Both the position numbers and the translations under genes were made by a program. A stretch of DNA of 64,000 bases from Thalassospira profundimaris (GTDB lineage Bacteria > Pseudomonadota > Alphaproteobacteria > Rhodospirillales > Thalassospiraceae). Numbering within the stretch: the first letter of the stretch is position 1; each line of letters begins with the position of its first letter. The notes under the pieces were generated by a model. That model worked only from the letters and a program-made list of their open reading frames with translations. It made no database searches and had not been told where the DNA came from. The DNA is taken from positions 186,001 through 250,000 of the forward strand of contig NZ_JPWI01000001.1 in NCBI RefSeq assembly GCF_003326795.1, given 5' to 3'. This document shows, piece after piece, positions 12,173 to 18,458 of this stretch.

Positions 12173-12248
12173 GGGGCTGTAGCTCAGTTGGGAGAGCGCT
12201 ACAATGGCATTGTAGAGGTCGTCAGTTCGATCCTGATCAGCTCCACCA
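12173..12248 (+). tRNA. tRNA-Ala (anticodon GGC)
   Basis: 76-nt cloverleaf with encoded CCA. Acceptor GGGGCTG pairs with CAGCTCC (one G-T pair), the D arm is GCTC/GAGC, the anticodon stem CTACA/TGTAG encloses loop ATGGCAT giving anticodon GGC, and the T arm GTCAG/CTGAT encloses TTCGATC. Its 3' part (from 12204) is duplicated exactly at 18399, so this copy has its 3' half supplied by the integrated element. A hairpin terminator follows at 12252-12282. Confidence 0.96.
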
Positions 12249-12263
12249 TTCAAAACCCGTTGC
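12204..12263 (+). repeat. Left attachment repeat (60 bp)
   Basis: Identical to 18399-18458. Starts in the tRNA anticodon loop and ends in the terminator stem. Typical tRNA-targeted attachment core for a tyrosine integrase. Confidence 0.95.
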
Positions 12264-12282
12264 TTTCTGCGACGGGTTTTGT
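12252..12282 (+). terminator. Terminator of the tRNA-Ala gene
   Basis: Stem aaaacccgt-t-gc / gc-g-acgggtttt just after the CCA end; its left arm lies within the attachment repeat and its right arm is very similar to that of the copy at 18447-18475. Confidence 0.75.
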
Positions 12283-12297
12283 TGTTTCCGGGTTTGC

Positions 12298-13320
12298 TCA
12301 ATTTGCCGGTTTCGTGAACATGCTCACGATATCCGCCCTCGGAGCCAGCGTTTCGGCCAGCGAAGACAGATACTCCGGCGACCATTTCCGATACACCCGC
12401 GTCACGGTTTCCCGTGTCGTCGCGGTCATATCCGAAATCTGATCGACTGAATGCCCGGCCATCGCCAACCAAGAAATCACCGAATGTTTCAGCACATGCG
12501 GCGATACCGGATCGAGCCCCGCATTCACACATGCCTGCCGGAACGACTTCTTGATATCGGCCAGCGGTTTCCCGTTGTACTCGACCACATAGGGCGTTTG
12601 CGCATACCGTTTCACATCCAAAAGCATCTTTGCCGTAGCTTCGCTGATCGGGACAACCGTCCGTCGCTTCCCGGTAACTTCCCTGTCCGGGTCCTGAAAG
12701 TCGATATGCGGACGATCCAGATTTACCCGATCCCATGTGAGTTGCAGGATTGCCGATTTCCGGGCTGCGGTTGACATCGCAACCAGTATGAAAACCTTCA
12801 AATGCTGTGGCCCTGCGGCTTCCAACAACTGATAGGCTTGCTCTTGAGTTAGCCACTTCTCGCGTGGGGGAGCTTTGCCCGGTGTGTCGATTTCCGGCAC
12901 CACTTCGATCCACCCCTTTTTCAAGGCATAGTTCAGGGTGGTGCGGAGCTCGATGAGCTCCGCCCGCAAACCGCCGGGACGGTGTTTTCTTTTCTTCCAA
13001 TAGGCATAAACGCGACTGGATGTGATCTGCTCCGGCAACAGTTTCCCGAAATGCTCGTGCAGGTGCTTGTGATAGTAGGGCGTGTTTTCCGCCCGTGCGC
13101 GTCCCTTGGCCTGAATGTCCGCCAACCGCTTTTCCAGCAGCTCCGAAACGGTCGCAGTGCTGGACGGGGCTTCGAGTTGGTTGACGACCTCTATCAAGCA
13201 TTGGTCAGCTTCCGTGCGATCTGCTGTGCCCGTAGACTTTGTCTCACCCCGATACCGGATATACCAGTTTTCACGGTTCTTGAGCTTGACGAGACGGGGT
13301 GGTTCTTCCTTGCGGGGCAT
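12298..13320 (-). CDS. Tyrosine recombinase/integrase of the tRNA-Ala element
   Basis: 340 residues: N-terminal beta region with 'NWYIRYRG', a SAM-like core-binding domain (about 55-140) and a catalytic domain (155-325). Arg187 in 'STAARKSA', Lys218 in 'TGKRR' and Tyr310 in 'VTRVYRKWSP' fit the family. The usual His-x-x-Arg box reads His275-Val-Leu-Lys278, and the later Gly-His is absent ('ISDMTATT'), so two of the canonical positions differ. The start at 13320 gives an integrase-like N-terminus; the frame continues upstream to 13392 without support. Lies 35 bp inside the left repeat, next to the target tRNA as expected. Confidence 0.9.
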   Translation of the reverse strand: MPRKEEPPRLVKLKNRENWYIRYRGETKSTGTADRTEADQCLIEVVNQLEAPSSTATVSELLEKRLADIQAKGRARAENTPYYHKHLHEHFGKLLPEQITSSRVYAYWKKRKHRPGGLRAELIELRTTLNYALKKGWIEVVPEIDTPGKAPPREKWLTQEQAYQLLEAAGPQHLKVFILVAMSTAARKSAILQLTWDRVNLDRPHIDFQDPDREVTGKRRTVVPISEATAKMLLDVKRYAQTPYVVEYNGKPLADIKKSFRQACVNAGLDPVSPHVLKHSVISWLAMAGHSVDQISDMTATTRETVTRVYRKWSPEYLSSLAETLAPRADIVSMFTKPAN

Positions 13321-13538
13321 GTGTAACGCTCCAGATATTCGGACAGGGACGATGCAGGCACACGGATGGTGCAACCGGGTCGCTGGATGCATGCCAGCTC
13401 ACCACGCTTCACCAATTGCCGTGCAGTTTCGTAGCAAACACCAAGACGGGCTGCGACCTCATGCAAGGTCAACAGCTTATCAAGTACTTGCGCTGTCACT
13501 CTGGAAACGTTAGGATCATGGGCGTTGAGACTACTCAT
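13194..13538 (-). CDS. HTH excisionase-like DNA-binding protein
   Basis: 114 residues with a winged-helix MerR/excisionase-type motif at about 22-70: 'LLTLHEVAARLGVCYETARQLVKRGELACI', split here only for description, followed by 'IRVPASSLSEYL', the classic HTH_17 pattern. Such proteins bend DNA at the attachment site and steer the integrase to excision. AAGGA stands 8 bases before the ATG. The last 42 codons overlap the integrase start by 127 bp in another frame, so the two are translationally linked. The C-terminal tail is Ser/Arg-rich with no clear fold. Confidence 0.75.
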   Translation of the reverse strand: MSSLNAHDPNVSRVTAQVLDKLLTLHEVAARLGVCYETARQLVKRGELACIQRPGCTIRVPASSLSEYLERYTCPARKNHPVSSSSRTVKTGISGIGVRQSLRAQQIARKLTNA

Positions 13539-13560
13539 GAATTAATCCTTTTAGGTTAGT

Positions 13561-13582
13561 TCAAGCTGCTCCAACAGCTTGA
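13561..13582. promoter_or_regulatory. Perfect 8-bp hairpin upstream of the excisionase gene
   Basis: tcaagctg-ctccaa-cagcttga lies 23 bp upstream of the excisionase start. No T tract follows on the minus strand, so it looks more like a leader hairpin or protein site than a terminator. Confidence 0.45.
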
Positions 13583-13601
13583 GTGGTTGACAGATTAGAA
13601 G

Positions 13602-13632
13602 CGGCTCGGATCACCCATCCGGGCCGTTTTTC
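13602..13632 (+). terminator. Terminator-like hairpin overlapping the XRE gene stop
   Basis: 10-bp stem cggctcggat / atccgggccg (one wobble) followed by five T residues on the plus strand. It covers the stop codon of the XRE gene on the other strand. It could block plus-strand readthrough into the element. Confidence 0.5.
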
Positions 13633-17481: not shown

Positions 17482-17482
17482 G

Positions 17483-17665
17483 TCGGGGGCCTTGCCCCCG
17501 AACCCCCGCGTTTCGCCAACGGGCAGGGTTGCAGGAGAAGGAACACTGCGCTTCGCTTCGTGTTCTTTCCTGCCACCCTTGCGGGACGCTATGGCAACCT
17601 CAGCCGCATCAAGAGCCTTCCGCCGCGCTAAAGCGCGGTCTCCCGAGAAGGCTCTTGACCCGGCT
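17483..17665. other. Hairpin cluster, candidate replication origin of the element
   Basis: Three structures in 183 bp: tcgggggc-ctt-gcccccga (17483-17501); a long imperfect stem at 17518-17583 built around gaaggaacac / gtgttctttc; and a 12-bp perfect stem tcaagagccttc / gaaggctcttga (17609-17620 with 17647-17658), extended by agccg/cggct and holding an inner ccgcgc-taaa-gcgcgg hairpin. No gene is convincing here. Rolling-circle origins are built of such stems, so this is where I would place the nick site. Confidence 0.5.
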
Positions 17666-17705
17666 TCGGTCACCTGTTGGAGCAAATAAGCAGTGTTGGT
17701 GCGGA

Positions 17706-18245
17706 TCATTTGGCACCTCCAAGCTGCAACTGGCGGCGCTCATGAACCGCAATTACGTTCGTTACGGTAGGAACCGAACAGCCGACATTACGGGCGATTT
17801 CCGCCTTGCTTATTCCTTCACTGAAAAGGTTGATGATCTGGCTGTCGCGCTCTTGCCGATCCTGCTTTCTGGCAAACGTGATTAGCGAAACGGCGCGTTG
17901 CTGTGACACGCCATAATCACGAACCAACTGCCTGAGGATTTTACCGTAAGGCATTCCAAGCGCATGATGCCGATCATGGTCGCGCACAAGAGCGCGTCCA
18001 AGTTCAAGAAAATCAGAGATTTGCTTATCTGTTGCTTCCTTCCGGGCTTTTTCTTCCTTCTGGATCGCCCGCTTTTGCGCCCTCTGGGCCTGTGTCGTCA
18101 AAGTTCGTACATTGACAACAGAACCGAGTAACTCCGCCAACTCCACCTGCGTTAGATGGATGGACAGAACGTATTCGGTAACAGCTCCAACATCCCGCTT
18201 AATCGAAATCCGACCACCGGTAAAATTCACCTGCTTGGAGGTCAT
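17706..18245 (-). CDS. HTH DNA-binding protein at the right end of the element
   Basis: 179 residues. A resolvase/Hin-type helix-turn-helix lies at about 143-165 ('EGISKAEIARNVGCSVPTV'), preceded by a charged coiled-coil-like helix (52-80, Gln/Lys/Glu-rich) and a helical segment with 'YGVSQQRAVSLI'. GGAGGGG stands 7 bases before the ATG at 18245, which is why the longer frame to 18314 was not used. It is probably a regulator or accessory protein of replication. A perfect dyad at 18280-18305 lies upstream. Confidence 0.7.
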   Translation of the reverse strand: MTSKQVNFTGGRISIKRDVGAVTEYVLSIHLTQVELAELLGSVVNVRTLTTQAQRAQKRAIQKEEKARKEATDKQISDFLELGRALVRDHDRHHALGMPYGKILRQLVRDYGVSQQRAVSLITFARKQDRQERDSQIINLFSEGISKAEIARNVGCSVPTVTNVIAVHERRQLQLGGAK

Positions 18246-18279
18246 TGCAAACCCCTCCACGCAGATAGCACCATTCGAC

Positions 18280-18305
18280 CGTTTCGTGAGCATGCACACG
18301 AAACG
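18280..18305. promoter_or_regulatory. Perfect 9-bp inverted repeat upstream of the right-end HTH gene
   Basis: cgtttcgtg / cacgaaacg with an 8-bp spacer, 35-60 bp upstream of the HTH gene start. Placement and symmetry fit an operator. Confidence 0.55.
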
Positions 18306-18367
18306 ATTTCGCAAGGTCCGTAAGTTGTTGATTTTATTGGAACCGACTTTCCGCCAGTTTTTGCCTC

Positions 18368-18395
18368 AAGCCCGCTGATTTGCTGGGCTTTCTGT
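18368..18395 (+). terminator. Terminator-like hairpin next to the right attachment repeat
   Basis: aagccc / gggctt stem followed by tctgtttt on the plus strand, 3 bp before the right repeat. It may insulate the element from host transcription. Confidence 0.4.
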
Positions 18396-18398
18396 TTT

Positions 18399-18458
18399 AT
18401 GGCATTGTAGAGGTCGTCAGTTCGATCCTGATCAGCTCCACCATTCAAAACCCGTTGC
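18399..18458 (+). repeat. Right attachment repeat (60 bp)
   Basis: Exact copy of 12204-12263: the 3' half of tRNA-Ala with CCA and part of the terminator. It lacks the 5' half, so it is not a tRNA gene. The original host terminator continues to 18475. Confidence 0.95.

Follow-up and report, generated by a model that had tools for sequence, protein, structure and literature searches.

In a 64,000-nt stretch of the Thalassospira profundimaris genome (hereafter the window, in which all coordinates are given), we describe a 6,195-bp element inserted at a tRNA-Ala gene. Most safely stated, the element is integrative and intact, and its rolling-circle replicon is common to PM2-like (corticovirus-like, Vinavirales) phages, which are tailless and contain a membrane. 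On balance, we favor the reading that it works like a phage satellite, which would excise, replicate by rolling circle and probably travel in phage particles.

A precisely inserted element at tRNA-Ala

The integration site is a tRNA-Ala(GGC) gene on the plus strand (12173..12248; ARAGORN). The element is bracketed by a perfect 60-bp direct repeat of the tRNA 3′ half plus 15 bp, with one copy of the attachment site (att) at the tRNA (12204..12263) and the other at the distal end (18399..18458), both on the plus strand. Beyond the identical 60 bp, similarity of ~93% extends over 91 bp and includes a terminator-like stem. Once the flanks are joined, the resulting empty site aligns uninterrupted in four other Thalassospira genomes (G009, G015, G001 and G007). 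UBA1131 (G022), a second Thalassospira species, carries a 6,189-bp version of the element at the same tRNA-Ala; the congeners compared also include T. marina (G027). Judged from these alignments, the uninterrupted site and the sister element indicate that the element is real and precisely inserted and that its repeat did not arise by chance, in agreement with an earlier note on this DNA that had proposed a 6.2-kb element between tRNA-Ala repeats. Window-type elements are rare, being present in 2 of 29 Thalassospira genomes. We rejected as rival elements the ~5-kb inserts that separate this tRNA-Ala from the right flank in two congeners (L158 in G021 and L159 in G012), which comprise TRAP-transporter genes and have neither an integrase nor a repeat.

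A Rep_trans-like initiator and its probable hairpin origin

The rep gene (15686..16912, minus strand) encodes a 408-aa protein that the earlier note had described as Rep_trans/RstA-like. It matched no Pfam profile up to E 1, PF02486 (Rep_trans) included, and its sole match in the Pfam, PHROGs and NCBIfam libraries was a weak one to phrog_1159. Although the Pfam model misses it, an AlphaFold model built on 69 relatives (predicted local distance difference test score, pLDDT, 87.5) gives a confident prediction of the Rep_trans fold. The first matches of this model in the Protein Data Bank (PDB) were RepSTK1 (Foldseek E 2.6e-9, Z 11.4) and RepDE (E 4.6e-7, Z 13.2), compared with Z 7.2 for the next unrelated fold, the TATA-binding proteins. 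Searching PDB sequences with the profile of Rep had returned mainly TAL-effector repeats, which we took to be composition artefacts of the helical C-terminus; the fold search settled the matter.

Across the 69 sequences D129, D133, Y187, K189 and E223 are invariant, and D9 is conserved in at least 90%. Their order (D9 / D129-D133 / Y187-x-K189 / E223) agrees with motifs N′, I, III and IV of the Rep_trans and MOBT enzymes, in which the acidic residues, the tyrosine and the lysine are required for nicking (PMC6499999); we assigned the motifs by residue order and took their roles from that study. The protein resembles both the Rep_trans initiators (RepD/RepDE, RepSTK1) and the MOBT relaxases in its predicted fold and in the order of acidic triad, catalytic tyrosine and lysine. 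It differs from them in escaping the Pfam model, in its C-terminal helical region and in having a hairpin upstream of rep. In MOBT proteins an N-terminal helix-turn-helix (HTH) domain precedes the catalytic one (PMC6499999), whereas in our model the catalytic part starts at residue 2 and no such HTH domain is present. We class Rep as Rep_trans-like, which retains that part of the earlier label, but not as a member of the Pfam family.

By aligning the DNA in front of rep genes we found a hairpin, a covarying stem around a TGTAnCA loop. In the window it occupies a 44-nt region on the minus strand (16924..16967; covariance-model match E 1.8e-11), 12 nt upstream of rep. Its arms lie at 16954-16962 and 16933-16941, and the minus strand reads AGGGGGGCG-GTTTTTGTATCA-CGCCCCCCT from 16962 to 16933, with GTTTTTGTATCA as the loop. 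The Terasakiella hairpin has the G and C arms exchanged relative to that of the window. In an alignment of 42 sequences, 88.6% of the cells are paired, eight of the nine pairs vary on both sides, and compensatory cells number 53, compared with 12.8 ± 4.8 in shuffles and ≤24 in slid controls. Hairpins of this kind stand upstream of rep in 86 of 88 rep-bearing loci, nearly all of them 32-71 nt before the gene. A covariance model of the origin gave 87 forward matches in 1.69 Mb from 86 sources (L081 has two elements), and by coordinates each of the 87 immediately precedes a rep gene on its 5′ side. About half come from loci outside model building, and the remaining 11 rows are these hairpins again, in reverse orientation. 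The single match in the host genome is the window hairpin. Among 385 genomes of the class, 14 of the 18 matches lie just before an independently found Rep. The simplest account is that the hairpin is the double-strand origin, because it is conserved and precedes the gene for a Rep_trans-like nickase. We regard it as the probable double-strand replication origin of the element, and rolling-circle replication from it as very likely. A codon-conservation search for an origin inside rep gave nothing.

Four origin-model matches fall in genomes that gave no Rep match, with E from 2e-9 to 7e-5 (G185:C221:75-118, at a contig start; G188:C101:5544-5592; G195:C14:5427-5470; G491:C2:368588-368631). They may represent truncated elements, islands without rep or matches by chance. 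A loose origin pattern matched seven stretches in IMG/VR, only one of them with a Rep, so the bare pattern is unspecific in very large collections. The contigs without a recognizable Rep are those of L194 and L199 (IMGVR_UViG_3300048848_000287), L195, L197, L198 and L200, and in one 20-kb IMG/VR contig the pattern occurs twice.

One replication module in tRNA islands and PM2-like prophages

We compared the neighborhoods of 80 named Rep loci and of those found earlier. In Alphaproteobacteria, the Rep and its hairpin occur in one of two settings: islands integrated in tRNA genes, where Rep accompanies a tyrosine integrase and, in most cases, an AlpA-like gene, or PM2-like tailless prophages, where it accompanies genes for the P2 capsid protein and the P9-type ATPase and, apart from a distant weak match in L084, no integrase. 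The window element is the reverse of these prophages, having an integrase and no match to the P2 major capsid protein or the P9-type ATPase. Its Rep nevertheless belongs to the same family as theirs, with 57-59% identity to the Reps of prophages such as the one in T. marina pCSC3H3, and the origin hairpin and its loop are the same. Within the 385 genomes Rep was detected in 21 and P2 in 9, and in six of these nine the Rep lies within ~3 kb of P2, which makes it a common replicase of alphaproteobacterial PM2-like prophages.

The Rep tree places the window and UBA1131 proteins as sister to the Reps of L021 and L022, the two PM2-like prophages from the same genus (Shimodaira-Hasegawa-like approximate likelihood ratio test 100), not to those of the islands. 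A single group of all capsid-type Reps was rejected (approximately unbiased test, p 1.6e-54), as was a group of the three window-type Reps (p 0.0003), although long branches are present. These rejections indicate that transfer of the replication module has taken place between elements with capsid genes and elements with an integrase. The loop GTATCA is found in all three window-type origins, in 3 of 12 capsid-type origins and in none of 71 others, a distribution that fits co-adaptation of Rep and origin in a shared lineage.

Forty integrase-type loci, including those of the window and UBA1131, have terminal tRNA-type direct repeats of 38-60 bp, spaced 4.5-13.3 kb apart (median 8.3 kb; the 10-kb flanks bound the largest island size visible). 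The targets include tRNAs for Met, Lys, Thr, Arg, Phe, Gly, Asn and Ala, and the usual island order is int, a gene for a ~240-aa unknown protein, AlpA, a small gene, Rep and cargo. We scanned one long cargo protein per island with PADLOC, and 23 of 29 matched defense models, a fraction that is indicative only because some matches hit broad ATPase or methyltransferase models and there was no control set. The matches comprise type IIG and type I restriction, DRT and retron reverse transcriptases, Dsr1, PD-Lambda-4, Tmn, IetS, SEFIR, dCTPase and others, and most related islands seem from these matches to carry anti-phage defense genes. The Rep relatives are nearly all chromosomal and bound to tRNA genes; the few plasmid matches are insertions or prophages in large replicons, and we found no small free plasmid among them.

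Together with the window element, the related islands form a large, apparently undescribed family of phage-satellite-like elements. The earlier note had called such elements poorly catalogued, which fits our finding no description of the group in a full-text literature search that mostly did not reach subscription papers and bioRxiv. Its suggestion of a new class is too strong, because the window element is one variant of this large family.

Two further observations concern the relatives. A small DUF736-like gene lies near Rep in L021, L022, L044, L047, L059, L062, L079, L080, L091 and L121; it recurs in PM2-like prophages and a few integrase islands and may be part of the replication module. 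More distant Reps, with profile E of 5e-18 and 6e-16, adjoin an integrase in filamentous-phage-like records (L038 and L039, Synechococcus phages Ssp-JY43 and Yong-M4-251; L043, plasmid p.1 of Pseudomonas sp. DY-1), in which the origin model has no match.

How the element may move

We propose that Int, aided by the HTH_17 excisionase, moves the element into and out of tRNA-Ala, and that XRE regulators silence it while it is chromosomal. In the circular form, Rep would nick the hairpin and start rolling-circle replication. The precise insertion and the Rep_trans-like Rep support the integrate-and-replicate character that the earlier note had seen in it. Having neither capsid nor transfer genes, the element would have to borrow a vehicle. 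The particle of a PM2-like tailless phage is a good candidate, because the nearest kin of its Rep and origin are PM2-like, and helper and element might replicate each other. We hold travel in phage particles of any kind to be somewhat better than an even bet, and travel in PM2-like particles in particular to be a tentative and rather doubtful extension. The general traits of phage satellites are present, namely an integrase with att sites, its own replication genes and no capsid genes. By analogy with phage-inducible chromosomal minimalist islands (PICMIs) and RS1, satellite behavior (helper-induced excision, cross-replication and packaging) may best explain movement without transfer genes. 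Among the options that the earlier note had listed, a satellite-like element fits best, because the Rep and origin are common to PM2-like phages and the related islands are rich in defense genes in a PICMI-like layout.

Several points weigh against this reading. DNA similarity between the element and the prophages is limited to rep and the origin, and the common module could reflect an old exchange with no present helper relation; swapping of replication modules is known among PM2-like phages, which also have replication genes in common with plasmids (PMC1950889). No P2 capsid gene (P2_N) was found in either genome that carries the element, no genome in the 385-genome sample combined a P2 prophage with a separate island Rep, and the IMG/VR searches yielded almost no relatives.

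The element might instead be an autonomous integrating rolling-circle plasmid that spreads by chance, through generalized transduction or natural transformation, with no dedicated helper. It has all that replication and integration need and, among its family matches, nothing dedicated to hijacking a phage, and plasmids and phages often have Rep modules in common. Replication genes of PM2-like phages also occur in plasmids (PMC1950889). We consider this possible but improbable, given relatives that sit almost exclusively in chromosomal tRNA genes with no small free plasmid among the matches, and given the satellite-like layout and defense cargo of the related islands. An integrative mobilizable element, with Rep acting as a MOBT-like relaxase on the hairpin as its origin of transfer and a conjugative element providing mobilization, would agree with the PF02486 fold and the residues that MOBT relaxases have (PMC6499999; PMC11389934). 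That Rep is without the N-terminal HTH domain of MOBT proteins, and that the same Rep and hairpin serve PM2-like prophages, which replicate rather than conjugate, makes it distinctly unlikely.

Least probable, to the point that we give it very little credence, is a decayed PM2-like prophage that has lost its capsid genes, even though the closest Rep and origin are those of PM2-like prophages of the same genus. The genes are intact and under purifying selection, the att sites are precise, and the same gene set recurs in a second species, with a partly shared set in Terasakiella. The PM2-like prophages have no integrase near Rep from which int could have been left over. Jorvik, a tailless phage of Alphaproteobacteria, encodes no integrase and probably integrates via XerCD (PMC10589892), so int is no obvious leftover of such a phage either.

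Comparison with known satellites

RS1 is a satellite of the filamentous phage CTXphi (PMC11389934). It has its own RstA-type Rep, a repressor shared with the phage, and no capsid genes. The window element is similar in having its own Rep, no capsid genes and a replication kinship with a phage, but RS1 uses XerCD and has no tRNA integrase. Compared with the RstR repressor family, xre2 scored 31.8 bits and xre1 17.1, below the cut-off of 80.

PICMIs are islands of Vibrionaceae with the order int, iolg, alpA, prim and accessory genes, and both PF00589 and PF12728 are part of their definition (PMC10803314). Like them, the window element is a small marine chromosomal island without structural genes that has an integrase, an AlpA/HTH_17 regulator and one replication gene. 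The related islands also resemble PICMIs in their defense cargo and in their layout, with int first, then an unknown gene, alpA, the replication gene and the cargo. Where PICMIs have a primase, these elements have a rolling-circle Rep with a hairpin origin; they target tRNA genes rather than fis, and their hosts are Alphaproteobacteria. In the window type, moreover, int sits at the opposite end and XRE regulators are present. With no primase match and integration in tRNA-Ala, the window element is not a PICMI. In a Nioella island (L117, 8884-8887), the gene for a ~235-aa protein after int overlaps int by 4 nt, as does iolg in PICMIs, where it is required for excision (PMC10803314).

A small alignable module, Rep with a 44-nt hairpin origin, ties apparently defense-rich tRNA islands to the tailless phages of marine Alphaproteobacteria, a neglected group. 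It also suggests how small defense-carrying islands, of which Rhodobacterales and their relatives have many, replicate. The hosts of the well-studied phage satellites are tailed phages or, for RS1, a filamentous one. The window element and the related islands could be the first known satellites of PM2-like phages, with the helper's Rep and origin, packaging into small capsids and defense against other phages, a speculative proposal that we think is more probably wrong than right. The Rep profile and the origin covariance model provide a specific search handle, and the question of satellites of tailless phages becomes directly testable.

Gene content and probable mosaic structure

The gene list of the earlier note (int, an xis-like gene, two XRE genes, a 108-residue unknown, Rep and a third HTH gene) is confirmed; the hairpin (16933-16962) and the gene u159 were absent from it. 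On the minus strand, int (12298..13320) encodes a 340-aa tyrosine integrase (PF00589, E 7.6e-16; phrog_1, E 9e-47). Its start is overlapped by the xis/AlpA-like gene (13194..13538), whose 114-aa HTH_17 product matches PF12728 (E 1.5e-10) and TIGR01764 (34.4 bits, cut-off 28.8). There follow, on the same strand, xre1 (13611..14408), an HTH regulator with weak HTH_31/HTH_3 matches and a Terasakiella homologue; a gene overlapping it (14362..14688), whose 108-aa product is 95% identical in UBA1131 and has no family match in Pfam, PHROGs or NCBIfam; and xre2 (14751..15587), an HTH_3 regulator (PF01381, E 2.4e-10) with a 36% identical Terasakiella homologue. Beyond rep, hth3 (17706..18314, minus strand) encodes a 202-aa protein with a C-terminal HTH (HTH_23, E 2e-6) and has a weak homologue in Terasakiella (pairwise E 6e-4). 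Scans of the element's proteins against Pfam, PHROGs and NCBIfam gave no capsid, canonical relaxase, coupling-protein, secretion or primase match, as the earlier note had observed for capsid, relaxase and secretion genes.

Divergent from rep, u159 (17053..17481, plus strand; start set by alignment) encodes a conserved 142-aa protein with homologues in the same place in UBA1131 (63% identity) and Terasakiella (33%). Its faint resemblance to Pfam Trypco2 (E 0.11) is a lead only, and its AlphaFold model (pLDDT 51) is too poor to use.

Between the window and UBA1131, the ratio of nonsynonymous to synonymous divergence (dN/dS) ranges from 0.05 to 0.46 across the seven minus-strand genes (int 0.11, xis 0.46, xre1 0.16, the 108-aa gene 0.05, rep 0.13, hth3 0.11), which on this comparison are under purifying selection; u159 has no usable dS and is outside this range. 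In contrast, an antisense open reading frame (16909-17709) has a dN/dS of 1.18, and we rejected it as a gene.

The gene order recurs elsewhere, in full in the second Thalassospira species and in part in Terasakiella pusilla (L053). There, u159, rep, xre2 and xre1 are in the same order with 33-38% identity, preceded by the weakly similar hth3; the integrase is essentially unrelated to that of the window (20% identical), and a search for an att repeat found none. The element is probably a mosaic, because synonymous divergence from UBA1131 differs between genes, from 0.07 (xre2) to 0.84 (rep). Within 13611-16912, it jumps from 0.07-0.14 (xre2 and xre1) to the 0.84 of rep, which suggests recombination between elements.

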